64,000 nucleotides of DNA, taken from an uncultured Holophagaceae bacterium. Its GTDB lineage: Bacteria > Acidobacteriota > Holophagae > Holophagales > Holophagaceae. Shown here one piece after another: positions 3,693 to 37,409 of the stretch. The first letter of the stretch is position 1. Each line of letters starts with the position of its first letter. Under the pieces are notes generated by a model. The model searched no databases and was not told the origin of the DNA. It saw only the letters and a list, made by a program, of their open reading frames with translations. The DNA lies in assembly GCA_903913215.1 (NCBI GenBank), contig CAIWKE010000003.1, positions 372,001 through 436,000 of the forward strand. The letters run 5' to 3'. The position numbers and the translations under genes were made by a program.

Positions 3693-4931
3693 CTATTTTT
3701 TCGCGGGTTTTGTGCGCCGCAGCTTCACGGTGAGAGCCAGCGTCTCCTTGTCGCGTGTGACCGTGAAGGCCACGGTGTCGCCCCAGTGCTTCTGCGACAT
3801 GGCGCGGTTGTATTGCTCCAGGTCCTTGAGGGGCCGAGCGTCCATGCTGACCAGCACGTCGCCCACCTTCAGGCCTGCGGTGGCGGCGGGGCTGTCCTTG
3901 GGCACGTCGATGATGCTCATGGGCAGGCCCCCGCGGCCGCCCCGTGAGGACATGCCCACACTGGGGAAGAGGGTCTCTTCTTCCCGGGGCAGGCCCCAGA
4001 CGTAATCCGCCAGGGAGGACTGGACCTTCTCGTAGCCCTTGCCCTTAGCATCCTCGATGTGGATCGGGATCACCGATGCCATCTTGCCGTCGAACCAGTG
4101 GGCGGCCTGACGCTGGATGCCCAGGCCGTAGGCCACGTGGCCCTGGCCGATGAGCACGACCATGATGTCCTTGGCGGGATCCTTGGCGCCGCTGCTGCTG
4201 CGCTTGAGGGCCTGGAAGGCGTTGTAGCCCATGGTCGCATCCCAGGTGCACTGGGCAGAGTACATGCCCTCGAAGACCTGATCGCTCATGGTGTGCATGC
4301 CGCTGTCATCGTCTGAAAAGAGGGCCTTCACCACGCGGCGGTGCTCAGCGCTACTGGTGTCGATCTGGGCGGGGATGGCCGCGGCCTCTTCGGGCGTGAG
4401 GTCCTTGAAGCCCTTCTTCCGTACGGCGGAGACCACCTCGCGGGGGGTGTTCACGCCATTGAGGTCGATGCCGTGGGCCTGGGCGAAAAGGAAGATCTCG
4501 CGGTAGTAGGCCCAGTTGTAGCCCCAGTTCAGGTACCAGTGACTGGCTTCCAGGAAGGCCGCCTCGGTCTGGCCGCCCTTGTTCCACTGGTCCAGGGAAG
4601 CCTGGGCCGTGTAGGGGAACATCTCCAGGCCCACGTGGACCCGCCTGCCCCGCCGCTGCAGTTCCCGGATCACCTGGAGCTGGACATCATGGAAGGCCAG
4701 GTCCGTATGGCTCTCACCCACGAAGACCATGCGCACGTCGTCCAGCTTCGCCGCCAGCTCCGCCGGGGTGAGCGCCGCGCCCGAACCGGCGTCGGTGATG
4801 GTGTCCACCTGCACGACGGCCTCGCGGTTCTTGCGGGCGGGGTCCCCCACCGGGAGGCGGTTGGCGTCCTCCGCGTGGAGCAGGACGCCAGCGACCAGGA
4901 CCAAGGTGATAGGGAGGAGTGGATTCGACAT
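3693..4931 (-). CDS. Exported ChaN/Tiki-superfamily protein with C-terminal PDZ domain
   Basis: About 412 residues from the ATG at 4931. This start is chosen over the upstream one at 4964 because it has an AGGACAG ribosome site and begins a clean signal peptide (MSNPLLPITLVLVAGVLLHA). The middle (about 60-310) resembles the ChaN/DUF399 family: FVGESHTDLAFHD, then GLEMFPY, and late IGQGHVAYGLG, giving the conserved Glu/His pairs of the erythromycin-esterase/Tiki fold. ChaN members bind haem or may cleave peptides. The last 90 residues form a PDZ domain (MSIIDVPKDSPAATAGLKVGD). The pairing suggests a periplasmic or surface-anchored enzyme that recognises protein C-termini. Substrate unknown. 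Confidence 0.8.
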   Translation of the reverse strand: MSNPLLPITLVLVAGVLLHAEDANRLPVGDPARKNREAVVQVDTITDAGSGAALTPAELAAKLDDVRMVFVGESHTDLAFHDVQLQVIRELQRRGRRVHVGLEMFPYTAQASLDQWNKGGQTEAAFLEASHWYLNWGYNWAYYREIFLFAQAHGIDLNGVNTPREVVSAVRKKGFKDLTPEEAAAIPAQIDTSSAEHRRVVKALFSDDDSGMHTMSDQVFEGMYSAQCTWDATMGYNAFQALKRSSSGAKDPAKDIMVVLIGQGHVAYGLGIQRQAAHWFDGKMASVIPIHIEDAKGKGYEKVQSSLADYVWGLPREEETLFPSVGMSSRGGRGGLPMSIIDVPKDSPAATAGLKVGDVLVSMDARPLKDLEQYNRAMSQKHWGDTVAFTVTRDKETLALTVKLRRTKPAKK

Positions 4932-31248: not shown

Positions 31249-31569
31249 ATGTCCGACCTCGTAGCTCACATCACGGATGCCGAGTTCCCCACAGTGATTG
31301 CCCAGGGCGTCACCCTCGTGGATTTCTGGGCCCCCTGGTGCGGCCCCTGCAAGATGATCGCCCCCGTCCTGGACGAGCTGGCCGCCGAGATGGTGGGCAA
31401 GGCCAAGTTCGTGAAGATGAACGTGGACGAGAACCCCGGCGTCGCCGGCCAGTTCGGCATCATGAGCATCCCCACCCTCATCGTCTTCAAGGACGGCAAG
31501 CCCGTGAACAAGCTCATCGGCGGCCAGCCCAAGCCGCAGCTGAAGGCGTTTGTGGAAGGTGCGTTCTAG
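31249..31569 (+). CDS. trxA: Thioredoxin
   Basis: 106 residues from the ATG at 31249, which has AAAGGAG 6 nt upstream; a longer frame starting at 31234 is less likely. The active site WCGPC (Cys31, Cys34) sits in VDFWAPWCGPCKM. The cis-proline loop IMSIPTLIVFKDG and the C-terminal helix are standard. It is a general disulfide reductant. A strong terminator follows the stop by about 33 bp. Confidence 0.97.
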   Translation: MSDLVAHITDAEFPTVIAQGVTLVDFWAPWCGPCKMIAPVLDELAAEMVGKAKFVKMNVDENPGVAGQFGIMSIPTLIVFKDGKPVNKLIGGQPKPQLKAFVEGAF

Positions 31570-31602
31570 GCCTTCGTTCTCGCTTGGAGGTCCGTGAATG
31601 CG

Positions 31603-31629
31603 AAAAACGCCGGCTTTGCCGGCGTTTTT
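31603..31629 (+). terminator. Intrinsic terminator after trxA
   Basis: A perfect palindrome AAAAACGCCGGC-TTT-GCCGGCGTTTTT. The 8-bp GC core is flanked by A and T tracts, giving a textbook rho-independent terminator that also works in reverse. Confidence 0.92.
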
Positions 31630-31795
31630 CGTTTGGACTAGCTTTGGATGCTTCCCCCTATCGCGAGGGAGGAAGGGGCCTGGGCGCTTGAGCCCCTTCG
31701 TCGTAGTGCTCTTTCAAGGATCAGCAGCTTTTTCGGCGGTTTCAATGGCCGGGGAATCGATTCGAAGCTAAAGGACGTCCAGGGAACTCGCCAAA

Positions 31796-31995
31796 CCCCT
31801 CCACCGCGAGATCCGTGAGGAGGACCTCCACCTCCGCCGCCCCCATGTCTCATGGATGATGCTTCCCGTGGAATAAGATGTACCGCCGCCCTCAGTTCGA
31901 GTGGGCCTCCTTCGTGCGGAGGCTGTAGTGCATTCTCCGCAGCACGACCCGCTGTTGATCCAGAAGTCGGGGGAGGGCGGCGGCGTAACATCCAT
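31796..31995 (-). pseudogene. intI: Integron integrase (IntI) N-terminal remnant with frameshift and stop codons
   Basis: From an ATG at 31995 the minus strand reads MDVTPPPSP. It then needs a 1-nt frame change in a C-run (complement of about 31969-31977) to continue RLLDQQRVVLRR-MHYSLRTKEAHSN. A stop at 31892-31894 is followed in frame by GRRYILFHGKHHP. A second stop at 31850-31852 is followed by DMGAAEVEVLLTDLAVEG, after which similarity ends. This order and spacing match the core-binding domain of IntI tyrosine recombinases (HYSLRTE.AY...RRYI.FHGKRHP..MG..EVE.FLT.LAVEG). The catalytic domain is gone, so the gene is dead. From 31640 to 31795 I see nothing recognisable. Confidence 0.85.
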
Positions 31996-32130
31996 CCGGA
32001 TTATTTAGGGCCGCCCTAATTCTTGAAGAATCACACTTCCTTAAGAATGATCTATGCTTCACTGGGGCCGGGATCCTGCTTACACGATCCTTCGGGCGGG
32101 TCCAGTGGTTCGTCAAATTCAAAGTTAGGC
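31996..32130 (+). other. Putative attI site and start of first cassette
   Basis: The 135 bp between the intI start and the first cassette ends in TTCAAAGTTAGGC. This is close to the attI1 end ACAAAGTTAGGC, with the G/TTRRRY crossover point at 32124-32125. A GCCCTAAT at 32013 and a TTGAAGAA/TTCGTCAA pairing also let it be read as an attC, but position next to intI favours attI. Confidence 0.6.
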
Positions 32131-32177
32131 GTTACCCGAACTAGGCCACTATCGATCCATCTGCCTAAGGAGGCTGT

Positions 32178-32663
32178 GTGAAACGATTGTTTGCTCTCCC
32201 CTTGGTCCTATTGGCAGGCCTCCTTGCCTGTGCATCCACACACACTCTCCCACAGCCTTCTTCCGAGGTTGTCCAGGCTGAAATTCGAAAGGCAATTGAC
32301 GGTTTCAGTGAGGCTTCCATTCGAGGAGATCTGCCCGGAGTGTTGGCTAAATTTGACGATCAGGCCGATATTCTTCTCATTGGCTCCGACAAGGGAGAAG
32401 TTTACAAGGGTCGCGCAGCCATGGAAGTTTGGCTCGGAAGCCTCTATAAATCGAATGGATTCGGATGGCAGATGGACCGCATTGATATCAGCCATAACGG
32501 TGATACGGCTTGGGCTTTTGTTGAGGGCAAAATGAACGTAAGTAATAAGGTCACTGGCAAACTTCGGTTCAGTGCCCCGTACCGCTTCTCGGTCGTGTTC
32601 GTGAGAAGAAGTAACAACTGGGTATTGCGACTCTTTCACGGGTCTGCACCAGGAAAAGAATGA
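32178..32663 (+). CDS. Cassette 1: NTF2-like lipoprotein
   Basis: 161 residues from a GTG with TAAGGAGG 4 nt upstream. The signal ends in a lipobox (LLAGLLAC, Cys about 18). The mature part is an NTF2/SnoaL-like domain: EIRKAIDGFSEASIRGDL, AKFDDQADILLIGSDKGEVYKG, AMEVWLGSLY and a closing SVVFVRRSNNWVLRLFHGS. Codon use is much more AT-rich than that of flanking genes, in keeping with cassette origin. Its cassette runs from the crossover point at 32125 to 32792. No promoter is evident, as is usual for cassettes. Ligand or enzymatic role unknown. Confidence 0.8.
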   Translation: MKRLFALPLVLLAGLLACASTHTLPQPSSEVVQAEIRKAIDGFSEASIRGDLPGVLAKFDDQADILLIGSDKGEVYKGRAAMEVWLGSLYKSNGFGWQMDRIDISHNGDTAWAFVEGKMNVSNKVTGKLRFSAPYRFSVVFVRRSNNWVLRLFHGSAPGKE

Positions 32664-32675
32664 AGATCATTCCTC

Positions 32676-32798
32676 GCCCAATCCTTCGCTCAACCTGGAC
32701 CCCGCCTGCACTGCCTTTCGCTCTCTCTCAGCTTCTCGCTTCCTCGGCTTCGCACAGCGCCTTGGTGCAGGCGGGCCGGTTAGCTTGAATCGTTAGGC
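32676..32798 (+). other. attC site of cassette 1, 123 bp
   Basis: R'' GCCCAAT (32676-32682), then GCTCAACC as L''. L' CGGTTAGC is complementary to L'' apart from one extra C, the expected extrahelical base. R' is GTTAGGC (32792-32798). An 11-bp perfect stem CCCGCCTGCAC/GTGCAGGCGGG supports the hairpin. The last base of R'' departs from RYYYAAC. Confidence 0.82.
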
Positions 32799-32858
32799 CA
32801 CCCAAAGTTGAATCCAAATTCAAGGACGATCAAGCAGGTTCTTTTGGAGGGCGCAACC

Positions 32859-33107
32859 GTGAGTGATTTTCATGAAGGAACGAATGCTCGGTGGTCCTTA
32901 TCAAGATTTCTGATGGTCGGGCTCATCATTGCCGTAATCGGATACCTCCCGCTTCAGCTCTATATCCTCTTTGGGCCTCGTGACGGGAACCCGATTGGCC
33001 TTGGCTTGTTGTTTGTGATTGGGGTTTTCACGGGACTAGTGGTGGTTGTCATTGGCATCGTCAAGCACACCATCCAATATTTTATGAATGGAAAGGAAGA
33101 ACCGTGA
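32859..33107 (+). CDS. Cassette 2: small two-helix membrane protein
   Basis: 82 residues from a GTG at 32859, which has GGAGG 8 nt upstream; a TTG at 32808 would add 17 residues but lacks a ribosome site. Two hydrophobic segments are clear: FLMVGLIIAVIGYLPLQLYI (about 18-37) and LGLLFVIGVFTGLVVVVIGI (about 50-69). The C-terminus is short and charged (NGKEEP). No family is recognised. Small membrane proteins are common integron cargo. Confidence 0.68.
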   Translation: MSDFHEGTNARWSLSRFLMVGLIIAVIGYLPLQLYILFGPRDGNPIGLGLLFVIGVFTGLVVVVIGIVKHTIQYFMNGKEEP

Positions 33108-33118
33108 CAGGGCTCTCG

Positions 33119-33177
33119 GCATTACGCATTCTCAGCGCCTCGGTGCAGGCGTAGCCGGTGACCTTCCTTTGTTTGGC
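33119..33177 (+). other. attC site of cassette 2, 59 bp
   Basis: GCATTAC (R''-like) to GTTTGGC (R', 33171-33177) spans exactly 59 bp, the classic 59-base-element size. CGCCT/AGGCG forms the stem. The 3' half, GGTGCAGGCGTAGCCGGTGACC, closely matches the other sites. Both cores diverge from consensus. Confidence 0.65.
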
Positions 33178-33201
33178 TTTTCCACCTCCTTTGGAGTCCG
33201 T

Positions 33202-33672
33202 TTGAGATTTGGAATCGCAATCCCGTGTTCACTTCTAGCAGCCCTGGCGATGACAGGCTGTGTGTCTCCTTCAAAATTGACCTCAACCCAAGACGTTGAG
33301 ACAAACAGAAGGATTGTGCTTGCTTTCTACAACGAAGCGCTTGTAAGTAAGCGTGTGCGCACTTCATTTCAGCGATATGTATCCCCATCATTTATCGAGC
33401 ACAAGCCCGATGTTGTAGGCGGCACACGCGAAGAAACCATTGTATTCCTGGGAGGCCTCATCCAAGAATTTCCCGAAGCTCGTTGGGAAGTGATTCGGTC
33501 AATTTCCGAGGGTGATTTTGTATTCCTCCATGCTCGATTCACGCCTTCACCAGGAGCTGCACCGTATTCAATTGCAGATATATTCCGTCTTCAAAAAGGC
33601 GTTATCACTGAGCACTGGGATGCAGTTGGGCGTCCCCCAGAGCACCAGCGCAATCCCAACCCGCGGTTCTAA
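33202..33672 (+). CDS. Cassette 3: SnoaL-like lipoprotein
   Basis: 156 residues from a TTG at 33202 with GGAG 5 nt upstream. Starts further upstream would run through the attC of cassette 2 and are rejected. The signal MRFGIAIPCSLLAALAMTGC carries a lipobox at Cys20. The mature domain is SnoaL-like: RRIVLAFYNEALVSK, RYVSPSFIEHKPDVVGG, IVFLGGLIQEFPEARWEVI, and DIFRLQKGVITEHWDAVG, the last being the strongest family mark. SnoaL-type proteins include cyclases and many uncharacterised members. Base composition is AT-rich relative to the chromosome. Confidence 0.78.
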   Translation: MRFGIAIPCSLLAALAMTGCVSPSKLTSTQDVETNRRIVLAFYNEALVSKRVRTSFQRYVSPSFIEHKPDVVGGTREETIVFLGGLIQEFPEARWEVIRSISEGDFVFLHARFTPSPGAAPYSIADIFRLQKGVITEHWDAVGRPPEHQRNPNPRF

Positions 33673-33697
33673 ATTCTTGTGTAATCTCTCGGATGAT

Positions 33698-33720
33698 GCC
33701 TAACCCTTAATAACCCATGG
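33698..33720 (+). other. Truncated attC (5' half only) after cassette 3
   Basis: GCCTAAC (33698-33704) is a perfect R'' core followed by CCTTAATAACCC as a possible L''. No matching GTTRRRY occurs before the next gene 27 bp later, so the 3' half seems deleted, fusing cassettes 3 and 4. Confidence 0.5.
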
Positions 33721-33730
33721 ACTCATCAAC

Positions 33731-34177
33731 ATGCGTGTGCTCATCTCGTTTTTCGTCCTAATCGTGATCGGCGCATCCAATTTTTTGTGGGCTGAGGGGC
33801 TGGTAACAAGAGATCAAGTGGCGGCGGCAACCATGGCATGGCAGGCGGCCTACGACAGCCGGGATCCAGGAGCCATCGTCAGCATGTACGACGCAGAGGC
33901 ATTGTTCTGGGGAACCACCGCCAAAACGATTGCTCCGACGCCTGCTGCCGTCTGGGATTATTTCAAGGATGCCGCTTCCAGGCCAAAAGCGCGTGTAGTC
34001 ATCGGTGAACATCACATTCGCGTCTTCGGCGAGATGGCCATTAATTCCGGCTACTACACGTTCACGGATGTCCGGGATGGCCAAGCCGTGCTCAAACCTG
34101 CACGCTTCACTTTCGTGTTTCATCGCAAAGCTGGCAAGTGGCTCGTGGTGGCCCACCATTCCTCGGCCATGCCATAG
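33731..34177 (+). CDS. Cassette 4: exported NTF2-like (DUF4440/CaMKII-AD-like) protein
   Basis: 148 residues with a signal peptide (about 1-21, ending in NFLWAEG). The rest is a single NTF2-like domain: VAAATMAWQAAYDSRDPGAIVSMY, ALFWGTTAKTIAPTPAAVWDYF, VVIGEHHIRVF and FTFVFHRKAGKWLVVAHHSS. The final HHSS pattern is typical of the CaMKII association-domain-like group. It is followed by a complete attC. The ATG has no strong ribosome site; the fused half attC upstream may have replaced its original leader. Confidence 0.8.
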   Translation: MRVLISFFVLIVIGASNFLWAEGLVTRDQVAAATMAWQAAYDSRDPGAIVSMYDAEALFWGTTAKTIAPTPAAVWDYFKDAASRPKARVVIGEHHIRVFGEMAINSGYYTFTDVRDGQAVLKPARFTFVFHRKAGKWLVVAHHSSAMP

Positions 34178-34210
34178 TCATGGCGCCCTTCAGTGCTTCC
34201 ATCAAGTTCC

Positions 34211-34331
34211 GCCTTACCCTGCGCTTCAGTCGCCCCCCCAGCATTGCCCCCGACTCTCTCTCAGTATGACGCTATCTCAGCCCGCTCAGCACCTCGATGC
34301 AAGCGTGACCGCTTAGCTTCTTCCGTTTGGC
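34211..34331 (+). other. attC site of cassette 4, 121 bp
   Basis: GCCTTAC (34211-34217) followed by CCTGCGCTTCAG, and at the other end CCGCTTAGC then GTTTGGC (34325-34331). Size and 3' layout match the 123-bp site, and its R' is identical to that of the 59-bp site. Core bases are imperfect. Confidence 0.65.
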
Positions 34332-34357
34332 GTGACCAATTTTCCCGGAGGCGTGCG

Positions 34358-34786
34358 ATGGCACTCATTGATCAGATCAATCGCTATTTCGAATCGATCC
34401 CAGAGCCCAAGCAAACGGACATGCGGAGACTCCATGACGCCATCCTGGAGCTGAATCCTGGTTGCCAACTTTGGTTTCTCGACGGCAAAGACGGGAGCGG
34501 TAAGGTGGTGTCCAACCCAAGCATTGGTTATGGCACGTTGACCAAAAAATACGCCGATGGGAAAAACAAAGAGTTCTATCAGGCAGGTATCAGCGCGAAC
34601 TCAGCGGGTCTGTCGGTCTACATCATGGGCATGGACGACAAGAAGTATTTGCAAGAAAATTACGCAGCCACAATCGGAAAGGCCAGCATCACGGGGTACT
34701 GCATCAAGTTCAAGGCGCTCAAGGATATTGACTTGGACACCCTAAAGCGTGCCATCCAAGATGGTATGGAACGAGCACGCGCCTGA
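34358..34786 (+). CDS. Cassette 5: DUF1801 (YdhG-like) protein
   Basis: 142 residues from the ATG at 34358, which has GGAGG 6 nt upstream; the longer frame from 34193 would translate the attC and is rejected. The sequence matches the DUF1801 fold: FESIPEPKQTDMRRLHDAIL, CQLWFLDGKDGSGKVVSNPS, IGYGTLTKKYADG and YIMGMDDKKYLQENY. DUF1801 proteins are small cytosolic proteins of unclear function, often found on mobile DNA. No attC follows, so this may be the last cassette or one that lost its site. Confidence 0.78.
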   Translation: MALIDQINRYFESIPEPKQTDMRRLHDAILELNPGCQLWFLDGKDGSGKVVSNPSIGYGTLTKKYADGKNKEFYQAGISANSAGLSVYIMGMDDKKYLQENYAATIGKASITGYCIKFKALKDIDLDTLKRAIQDGMERARA

Positions 34787-34823
34787 GCCCCCTCTTCTCC
34801 ACAGCTCTCATCAGGAGCCAGCC

Positions 34824-35177
34824 ATGACCTTTGGGAAGACCGCAGCATTCTGCCTCTCCCTCTGCCTTGCAGGACGGGCCTATGCACAGCAGCCGGGTGA
34901 GCACGGTACATCCATCAGCGATCCTGGGAATTCATTTGAAGTCCTGATGGCCAAGGTCGAGCAGGTGTTTTCCTATGCTGATGAAGCTGGCTTTCAATTC
35001 ATTGCCTACCAGATCTCATATCAAGGACATCCCGTGGTCGTCGAGGATCCTATTGGCTCTACGAACATTGCGGTGGGTGGCGAAGTCCGATTTCTCGTCA
35101 TTCGGCATGACATGACGAAGGCGCCGAGGCCGGGCAAGAAACTTCTCAGCTTCCTGGTCACCAAGCAGGTGGCCTGA
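34824..35177 (+). CDS. Small exported protein of unknown function
   Basis: 117 residues from the ATG at 34824, with CAGGAG 6 nt upstream. A signal peptide (about 1-22, ending in GRAYAQQ) precedes about 95 residues with VLMAKVEQVFSYADEAGFQFIAY, VVEDPIGSTNIAVGGEVRFL and KKLLSFLVTKQV. Family not recognised. It follows the last cassette gene by only 37 bp on the same strand. Its GC content is intermediate between the island and the chromosome, so it may be a cassette without attC. Confidence 0.62.
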   Translation: MTFGKTAAFCLSLCLAGRAYAQQPGEHGTSISDPGNSFEVLMAKVEQVFSYADEAGFQFIAYQISYQGHPVVVEDPIGSTNIAVGGEVRFLVIRHDMTKAPRPGKKLLSFLVTKQVA

Positions 35178-35205
35178 GCCCCTGCTTCCTTCCCAAGGTC
35201 GGCCG

Positions 35206-35508
35206 ATGCCCATTTTCGCGGAGCCCTACAAACCACCCCCACCCGATCCAATCCCGATCTTTGGGGAACCCCCCTTCGGACCAGCCCTCATGGCGGAGCT
35301 GGTTCGCACGCTCGAACAGCGTGGCTGGGCCTGTGACCATACCCTGAAGCAGGTGAAGGCCTTCCTCCAGGCGAAAGACCTCGACGTTGAGCCTGTGTTC
35401 AAGTGGCTATACCGGAGTCACCTCTACTGCGACTGCGCCCTTGTGAAGGCCTTCCACCAGCACACCTTTCCTCAGGCCGGAGACAGCCCGGGTCCCAGGG
35501 CCGGTTAA
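35206..35508 (+). CDS. DUF2695-like small protein
   Basis: 100 residues. The C-terminal half, TLKQVKAFLQAKDLDVEPVF followed by KWLYRSHLYCDCALVKAF, resembles DUF2695, whose hallmark is a WL..NGGYCDCEVL-type ending with the CDC pair. The N-terminus is Pro-rich (EPYKPPPPDPIPIFGEPPFG). The function of the family is unknown. It lies 28 bp after the preceding gene on the same strand. Confidence 0.6.
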   Translation: MPIFAEPYKPPPPDPIPIFGEPPFGPALMAELVRTLEQRGWACDHTLKQVKAFLQAKDLDVEPVFKWLYRSHLYCDCALVKAFHQHTFPQAGDSPGPRAG

Positions 35509-35547
35509 CATCGAGCCAGCCGACGTCCCCGCGCAAAGGATTCCATT

Positions 35548-35886
35548 TTGAGCCAGCTGCCTGCCTGCCCCACCTGCAAGTCTGATTACACCTACGAGAG
35601 CGACGGCGGGTTTGTCTGCCCGGAATGCGCCCATGAGTGGACCCTGGCGCTGGATACACCTCAGGAGCAGGAGGCCATCATCCGGGACGCCAACGGGAAT
35701 GTCCTGCAGAACGGGGATTCCGTCACCCTCATCAAGGACCTGAAGGTCAAGGGCAGCCCCTCCCCCCTGAAGATGGGCACCAAGGTCAAGAACATCCGCC
35801 TGGTGGAGGGCGATCACAACATCGACTGCAAGATCGAAGGCTTCGGCGCCATGAGCCTGAAATCGGAATTCGTCAAAAAGAGCTGA
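35548..35886 (+). CDS. yjdM: YjdM/PhnA-family zinc-ribbon protein
   Basis: 112 residues from a TTG at 35548 (AAAGGA 7 nt upstream). The N-terminal zinc ribbon has [11 protein letters not shown] and CPECAHEW, four cysteines in two pairs. The C-terminal SH3-like PhnA domain contains [30 protein letters not shown] and [20 protein letters not shown]. The family was once linked to phosphonate use but its members are of uncertain function. Length and domains are complete. Confidence 0.9.
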
Positions 35887-36092
35887 GCCCCCGCCTGCGC
35901 AGGCCTGTGGGGTGGCCCATCCACACGCTTTCTTCCAGTGCGCCGTCCCACCCACCGTCGCGAGCCTCGATCCCGGTTGCCGATTCCATGAATTGCCAGG
36001 ATCTGTCCACACTCTTTCTTACACTTCAGGGGCCCATGCCCAAGGGCCTTCGGGCAACTGCCATGCTGTCGATCGCACCAGGCTGAGGGCCC

Positions 36093-36452
36093 ATGGACGA
36101 TCGGATCAGCAACCTCGAAGCACTGAAGACCAAGCTGGCGGAACTGCTGGATCGCAGTGGGCTCCGGTTCAGCGACCAGGGACACCACGCCACCGCCTGC
36201 TGGGTCGAGGGTCCACCGCATGCGGTCTTCGCGCTGCTGAAGCGCAAGACTGCGCCTGAGCTCTGGTCCCAGTCTGGGAATGTCCTGTGGACCTACAAGA
36301 ATCCAGTCGAGAACATCCTCATCACCCTGCAGAGCGGGAGTATCCATGACTCCACACTCATGATGGCTTCGGTGATCTCCCTGCATGTGGAGTACATGGC
36401 AAGGCGGCAGCAGGCCCCCGCGGAAGAGGCCCTGCAGGAAACCATCGCCTGA
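36093..36452 (+). CDS. Hypothetical cytosolic protein
   Basis: 119 residues, starting MDDRISNLEALKTKLAELLD. A mixed alpha/beta pattern is visible (HHATACWVEGPPHAVFALLK, ENILITLQSGSIHDSTLMMA), with no signal peptide or membrane segment. GAGGG lies close to the ATG. I recognise no family. The 206-bp gap before it (35887-36092) shows no attC, promoter or repeat that I can support. Confidence 0.55.
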   Translation: MDDRISNLEALKTKLAELLDRSGLRFSDQGHHATACWVEGPPHAVFALLKRKTAPELWSQSGNVLWTYKNPVENILITLQSGSIHDSTLMMASVISLHVEYMARRQQAPAEEALQETIA

Positions 36453-36497
36453 ACCACTGCGGGGGCCGGGAGCTTCGCCACCACCCCCAGGCAGGGC

Positions 36498-37409
36498 CTA
36501 CTTCCGCCTAAGCACCATGCGGATCTGGTTCCCCTTGGCGTTGAAGTGGACCTCGTCCATGACCAGGAGGATGAGGGGCAGGCCGCGACCGCAGTGGGGA
36601 GCCAGGTCCGAGTCGCCGGGCAGGGGCGACATCTGGCTGGCGTCAAAGCCCGGGCCTTCGTCACTGATCTCCAGCTCGAAGCGCTCCGTGTCCATGGCCA
36701 GGCGCACCTCGATGAGGCGCCCCGCGTACGCGGGGTCCGCCATGCGCTCGGCGCGCAAGGTCACGTAGGCATCCTCGGCGGCGAAGAGGTCGCCCTTGAG
36801 GTGCGACTCCAGCTCCAGGTTGCCGTGCTCCAGGGCGTTCACCAGGGCTTCGTGGAAGGCCATGGAGATGACGTCCACGTTATTGAGGGAGGCGAAGCCC
36901 ATGGGCACCAGGCGGTCCGAGAGGTGCCGCACGAGGCTGGGCACCTCCAGCTCGTCCGAGCGGAAGAGGAAGTGGCGGCGCTCGTTCACCAGACCCCGCA
37001 GGCCGTCATCCGCCAGGCGGAAGTCCCGGTGCATGTCCACGAGATGGAAGACACTCTGGACCAGGTCGCGGATGGCCACGGGCTTCATGAAGAGGTTCGA
37101 AGCCCCCAGGCGCATGGCCCGAATGGCGTAGTCGACCGAGGCCTGGCCCGTCATGAGCACCACGGGCAGATGGGGCTGGGTGGCCTTCACTTTGTGGATG
37201 ACATCGAAGCCGTCCAGGCCTTCCATGTGGATATCGCTGATGACCAAGTCGAATTCCGGGGCCGAGGGATTCTGCAGCAGCTCCAGGGCCTGGGCCGCGT
37301 CGGGGTAGGCGTGGACCTCCATGCCGTAGTGGCCCAGGACCGACTGCACCATGTCCAGAACGGCCGAATCATCGTCGATGAGCAGGATGTGCGCAGCCCT
37401 ACGTTTCAT
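36498..37409 (-). CDS. Response regulator with RsbW-like HATPase output
   Basis: 303 residues. A receiver domain (about 6-125) has LLIDDDSAVLD, phospho-acceptor Asp59 in VISDIHMEGLDG, LMTGQ and the switch Lys in FMKPV. The C-terminal half (about 150-300) is an HATPase_c_2 domain of the RsbW/SpoIIAB type, with FHEALVNALEHGN as N-box, ISDEGPGFD as G1 and HCGRGLPLILLVMD as G2. This architecture suggests a phosphorylation-controlled protein kinase or anti-sigma factor of a partner-switching pathway. The matching PP2C phosphatase class is present at 8.2-9.8 kb. No sigma or STAS gene is adjacent. Confidence 0.88.
   Translation of the reverse strand: MKRRAAHILLIDDDSAVLDMVQSVLGHYGMEVHAYPDAAQALELLQNPSAPEFDLVISDIHMEGLDGFDVIHKVKATQPHLPVVLMTGQASVDYAIRAMRLGASNLFMKPVAIRDLVQSVFHLVDMHRDFRLADDGLRGLVNERRHFLFRSDELEVPSLVRHLSDRLVPMGFASLNNVDVISMAFHEALVNALEHGNLELESHLKGDLFAAEDAYVTLRAERMADPAYAGRLIEVRLAMDTERFELEISDEGPGFDASQMSPLPGDSDLAPHCGRGLPLILLVMDEVHFNAKGNQIRMVLRRK

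Follow-up and report, generated by a model that had tools for sequence, protein, structure and literature searches.

In a 64,000-nucleotide stretch of the genome of an uncultured Holophagaceae bacterium (hereafter the window; contig C3:372001-436000 of a 3.9 Mb assembly in 41 contigs, 95% complete), a gene cassette array headed by the stub of an integron integrase gene (intI) lies between a thioredoxin gene and a response-regulator gene. The locus is very probably a dead integron platform, whether or not a whole intI was ever present, and taken alone it is a decayed integron of a known kind. Placed beside related genomes, the platform fits a pattern of the genus, in which intI sits at a native locus whilst further arrays lack intI, most of the evaluable ones having an attI-like site. 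From these sequence comparisons we tentatively propose, at somewhat below even odds (a probability of about 0.45), that the genus runs a one-integrase, many-platform integron: the native IntI would serve scattered attI-headed satellites, each with its own first-cassette position, and the stub in the window would record both the birth of a satellite, by copying of the head and loss of intI, and the shrinkage of the network after intI was lost.

The integron remnant in the window

A reading made from the sequence only had described an old integron with a dead intI, an attI site and surviving cassettes, and the stub, the attI and the attC sites reported here back that description. Its minus-strand IntI N-terminal remnant is matched by the NCBIfam model TIGR02249 at 31796-31963 (minus strand, model positions 2-57 of 315, 35.9 bits, E = 1.1e-8). 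The same model also matches in 14 of 14 control genomes, always under the cut-off and presumably on XerC/D-like recombinases; we assign the window match to IntI because of its N-terminal position and because its DNA is identical to sister intI starts at 73% over 225 nt (one intact gene) and at up to 78% over 116 nt (another). The 56 amino acids of the stub share 66% identity with the closest sister IntI tested, the native-locus IntI of genome G028. Two internal TGA codons, a frame slip in the first dozen codons and a stop after ~57 codons disable it, and the remaining ~80% of the gene is lost. For comparison, the intact IntI of sister genome G011 has a match over residues 1-313 to the solved integrase 2A3V, which is listed as ‘IntI4’ (E = 9.2e-86), and shares ~59% identity with an annotated plasmid IntI1, whereas the window copy is a 57-codon stub. 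No intI scored over the TIGR02249 cut-off in the genome as assembled, and a 340-aa recombinase on contig C8, considered as an alternative intI, was ruled out at 27% identity.

The attI-like site noticed next to intI proved to be one mismatch away from the 20-mer of intact sister attI sites, whilst 60 shuffles of the same DNA never fell under 6 mismatches. The window sequence, TTCAAAGTTAGGC, occurs once in the genome and equals the end of the attI found upstream of intact intI at 18 of 30 loci (strict pattern, up to 450 nt); when a further 114 loci were scanned (1.39 Mb in all, with 80 of the loci belonging to other, named bacteria), the pattern turned up only in the window's own copy. The integron order is conserved, with intI on the minus strand, attI between intI and the first cassette, and the cassettes on the plus strand. 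The spacer between intI and attI, a putative platform promoter region, was matched through only by this genome's own native locus on contig C27 in a search of 77 genomes (up to 9 candidates scored per genome), and no sigma-70 promoter or terminator pattern was found in 31560-32200.

Searching the 64-kb window with an attC covariance model (R1) built from 42 sister-array sites and no window site (19 pairs, 8 of which show compensatory changes) bore out the attC sites that had been expected there: it returned attC 1 (110.6 bits, E = 2.6e-24) and attC 4 (59.1 bits, E = 3.7e-12) and no further attC at E up to 10, and an unfiltered search of 31-37 kb gave the same two sites plus 33 matches with E above 1. 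GTTTGGC ends that had been taken as attC-like equal attC 3′ ends at 33171 and 34325. The bottom-strand folding that had been suggested gave a divided result, as attC 1 forms a hairpin (z = -1.09) whilst the fold of attC 4 is lost (z = +1.44); two sister attC sites fold at z = -3.45 and -2.94. In all, the array (32131-34795) holds five cassettes, and of their attC one is sound, one has decayed and three are truncated. The integron does lie where it had been placed, except that homology reaches slightly further right than 34786, to 34795. The remnant assigned to attC 3 could be a chance match, since the covariance model does not detect it. An Rfam search gave no attC family and two sub-threshold matches, which were disregarded; a pattern scan found one true site, and its candidates at 35246, 25248 and 11830 were at chance level and were rejected.

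With two model-scoring attC ~1.4 kb apart and no functional intI, the locus is a cluster of attC sites lacking integron-integrases (CALIN). Of the parts of a complete integron it keeps the attI and the orientation and, at attC 1, core boxes and hairpin, but not an intact intI. It lacks the transposon or plasmid context of a mobile integron, its flanks being host genes, and no transposase family scored over the cut-off among the nine insert open-reading frames (ORFs) tested, the rest of the window not having been searched.

To survey the insertion site, the gene upstream of the thioredoxin gene was located in 62 other family genomes; of the 29 best loci, which were fetched and all belong to the genus, 27 could be scored. 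The gap between thioredoxin and response regulator measured 58-133 bp in 23 of these 27 and ~1 kb in 4, and none of the 27 held an attC. Because these 27 sites lack any such block, the 31.6-36.46 kb block is most simply a lineage insertion. The site is not the ancestral intI locus. In this genus intI is usually found next to a gene for a small metallopeptidase, which follows it in 12 of 20 fetched intI regions (among the other eight, three come from other genera and two are second copies of intI); the expectation of an intact intI at this same locus in sister genomes was not supported, the sisters examined having intI elsewhere. The four ~1-kb gaps (L062, L065, L073, L089) hold an ORF with a shared motif, as judged by eye.

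Integrases and intI-less arrays in the family

Integrons are common in this family, contrary to the earlier supposition that evidence for them was scarce in the group: an intI over the TIGR02249 cut-off is present in 46 of 77 family genomes (a few partial), including 29 of 47 in the genus, and the accessible part of PMC8352920 already presents an Acidobacteria-specific attC model. An acidobacterial host for the window is plausible, in that the best relative of RibBA among 80 named loci, at 54% identity, comes from an ‘Acidobacteria bacterium’. Intact, frameshifted and deleted intI all occur within the genus. A second IntI of a separate lineage (L049 in G022, L050 in G034, L201 in G015) is 66-68% identical to the native IntI of G011, and no metallopeptidase gene lay near it in the fetched stretches.

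The genome studied here retains its native locus on C27 (L187:8506-10257), where the metallopeptidase gene stands with two attC and a dead attI-intI head. No intI was found there by tblastn; read directly, the head runs from attI through a spacer to a start codon, after which roughly a dozen codons of intI lead to a stop, and it shares 73% identity over 187 nt with the window head. At E up to 1 the whole genome has nine attC matches, one of them weak (E = 0.078), spread over five loci. At E up to 1e-5, with the best 150 candidates per genome scored, it has 7, whereas four sisters with an intI have 78, 90, 88 and 88 and one with a split intI has 14. Across genomes at least 90% complete, with at most 5% contamination and at most 100 contigs (best 46 candidates per genome scored), those with an intact intI had a median of at least 46 attC matches (range 8 to at least 46, 19 genomes) and those without one a median of 11 (range 3-35, 5 genomes; Mann-Whitney p = 0.005, not corrected for phylogeny). 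The remaining attC of this genome lie on C26 (L188:6248-7982, three), C9 (L189:8284-8394, one) and C11 (L190:8423-8520, one), with no attI-like site within 4 mismatches upstream and no intI match.

Sister genomes likewise carry attC arrays far from intI, and in G011, G018 and G021 all eight intI-less arrays examined have an attI-like site at their start in the right orientation. Over the 20 evaluable intI-less arrays, a site with at most 4 mismatches begins 16, lying 176-744 bp before the first attC (this cut-off was fixed after the first eight arrays had been seen, and the genomes were not randomly chosen); 60 shuffles per array never fell below 5 mismatches. The first set of arrays contributed 8 of 11 (G034 accounts for two of the failures and a locus in G036 for the third) and the later set 8 of 9 evaluable (one in G006 failing), or 5 of 9 by the strict pattern. 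Some of the misses may be false, because in G014 the genuine native attI, which has an indel, lies 7 mismatches from the 20-mer and escapes it, and the native attI of G034 is a shorter variant. Among the 20 later-fetched stretches, the 11 whose arrays start at or near a contig end (L269, L270, L272-L275, L278, L282-L285) were left out; in L270, L275 and L278, the 266-467 bp beyond the outermost attC held no attI pattern. In L288 no array was seen by pattern scan, the covariance model not having been used there.

Of the heads of the first eight satellite arrays, three (L256, L257 and L261) outscore their shuffles for the element that directly precedes intI at native loci, and that of L258 aligns with its own native head over 253 nt at 75%. 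Within 600 nt of the eight sister satellite heads no intI was found, by a search that is blind to very short stubs and missed the dozen-codon stub of C27. The window locus resembles these satellites in having an attI 545 bp before its first attC and in lying off the native locus, and differs in containing intI sequence.

Three further features of sister arrays were noted. In G010 a second attI-like site lies inside an array (L286:15291), as if two platforms had fused; in G034 (L051, L263-L266) there is, besides the 124-bp attC class, one of ~109 bp whose stem sequence differs; and, by eye, a tRNA-Ser-like sequence stands ~1 kb before an intI-less array of the same genome (L265, ~4700-4800).

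Cassette genes and the insert tail

Three of the five cassette genes belong to the SnoaL/DUF4440 families (Table 1), the SnoaL_3 family of cassette 1 being NTF2-like. The cassette 2 protein matched no Pfam family over the cut-off, and that of cassette 3 carries a lipobox-like MTGC by eye. Cassette 5 is homologous to cassettes of sister arrays: its protein is 81-83% identical to genes in G009, G019 and G031, the relatives in G009 and G031 are flanked by attC on both sides, and cassette and preceding attC together give an alignment of 593 nt with G031 (82% identity) and one of 605 nt with G009 (81%). At a dN/dS of ~0.12-0.13 against these relatives, cassette 5 is by this measure under purifying selection.

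To the right of the array, no attC was found by the covariance model in the tail (34796-36497). Its YjdM/PhnA gene occurs in 1 of 47 genus genomes and in four genomes of three other genera, to whose genes it is 75-81% identical; apart from these genes, the tail DNA found a match only in two further genomes, to a 44-nt piece of YjdM.

Table 1 Features of the integron remnant and its flanks, in window coordinates.
Feature	Position	Strand	Basis and remarks
Thioredoxin gene, left host flank	31249..31569	+	Followed by response regulator in 27 scorable sister loci
intI stub	31796..31995	-	Start codon region and ~57 codons; TIGR02249, alignment with intact sister intI
intI-attI spacer	31996..32110	-	Platform promoter region (putative)
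attI core	32111..32130	+	1 mismatch to 20-mer of intact sister attI sites
Cassette 1 gene, SnoaL_3 protein	32178..32663	+	Pfam PF13474, E = 3.1e-13; lipobox-like LLAC by eye
attC 1, complete	32676..32798	+	R1 model; core boxes; bottom-strand hairpin
Cassette 2 gene, small membrane-type protein	32859..33107	+	ORF from 32808; start placed from ribosome-site-like GGAG
attC 2, 3′ half only	33131..33178	+	blastn; 48 nt aligned at 87.5% identity with 3′ halves of sister attC
Cassette 3 gene, SnoaL_2 protein	33202..33672	+	Pfam PF12680, E = 2.8e-9 on ORF 33088-33672; putative start
attC 3, first 12 nt (GCCTAACCCTTA)	33698..33709	+	Read directly; R″ core
Cassette 4 gene, DUF4440 protein	33731..34177	+	Pfam PF14534, E = 5.1e-13; signal-like start by eye
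attC 4, decayed	34211..34331	+	R1 model, 59.1 bits, E = 3.7e-12; sequence recognisable
Cassette 5 gene, DUF1801-like	34358..34786	+	Pfam score just below cut-off
attC 5, first ~14 nt	34781..34794	+	G031 and G009 cassette alignment stops 14 nt into their attC; array broken here
Insert tail, four small genes	34824..36452	+	34824-35177; DUF2695, 35206-35508; YjdM/PhnA, 35548-35886; 36093-36452; Pfam
Response-regulator gene, right host flank	36498..37409	-	Sister loci comparison

Proposed origin of the platform and its meaning for the genus

The dead-platform reading would run as follows. A copy of an integron head (intI start, promoter spacer and attI) would have been placed between the thioredoxin and response-regulator genes, the window and C27 heads probably being copies of one another, and the intI stub suggests that platforms of this kind arise by such head copying. 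By analogy with established integron biology, IntI would then have inserted cassettes at the platform attI through attC x attI recombination; capture would have stopped once intI was lost, and most attC would since have decayed or been deleted, leaving the cassettes fixed.

Several observations weigh against this reading. The window head keeps 57 intI codons whilst none were detected beside the eight sister satellite heads, so the window locus may once have been a full second integron. That a complete second integron with its own functional intI decayed in place, which would still make the locus a dead platform, is a possibility we take seriously without favouring it; five family genomes (G015, G022, G034, G050, G053) do list two intI over the cut-off, whereas the window head pairs with the native head of its own genome and not with the lineage of second-integron IntI, the stub being 66% identical to the native-locus IntI of G028 but only 48% identical to the second IntI that G034 carries. 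An intact intI could also be missing from the assembly, given its 41 contigs and 95% completeness. The hairpin energy of attC 1 is unexceptional, 27 of 200 shuffles being as good. Finally, relatives of cassette 1 (nine loci in eight other genomes) do not stand beside strong attC, the fetched flanks of only one of the nine loci holding attC, and weak ones (20.2 and 18.7 bits).

It seems unlikely to us that the block was acquired horizontally as a fragment that was no longer functional when transferred. Its low GC content (53.2% in 31796-34795 vs 66.9% for the whole window) and the occurrence of the tail YjdM gene otherwise only in four genomes of three other genera speak for a foreign source, but cassettes are usually low in GC and the spacer matches the native head of this genome only. 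Off-target insertion of cassettes beside a chance intI-like stretch is highly improbable: it is one origin proposed for CALINs in the part of PMC8618304 available to us, and no attI-like site was seen at 4 of the 20 sister arrays that could be evaluated, but it would not supply an intI stub (E = 1.1e-8) and an attI in correct divergent order.

The sections consulted of PMC2426708, PMC9024848, PMC8618304 and PMC12444791 already describe intI pseudogenes, duplications, CALINs and CALINs mobilisable in trans. As excerpted, PMC2426708 reports that nearly one third of intI genes are pseudogenes, some apparently produced by within-genome duplication; in its duplicates a pseudogene accompanies a nearly identical functional integrase, whereas here both heads are dead and no intact intI was found. 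A close parallel is in Xanthomonas, where the intI of sedentary integrons lies at ilvD and is often inactivated, and CALINs occur at other places (PMC12444791, in the part seen). Both systems share a conserved native intI locus, frequent loss of intI and arrays outlasting it, and one Xanthomonas lineage has, like the window locus, a truncated intI away from the native site; unlike here, that portion of PMC12444791 reports no attI-like site at Xanthomonas CALINs, and attC family and host differ. CALINs as defined in the extracts of PMC9024848 and PMC8618304 have, like the window locus, at least two attC and no functional intI, but the window locus retains an attached attI and an intI stub. In the excerpts of the literature searched (for example PMC2426708, PMC9024848, PMC8618304, PMC12444791 and PMC8352920), we did not find attI-headed satellite arrays.

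The value of the locus is comparative, as the mixture of intI states within the genus allows tests of what becomes of cassettes once the integrase is lost. Should one IntI indeed use attI-headed satellites in trans, several first positions of an integron could be expressed simultaneously, and cassette expression and array size would be modelled differently.

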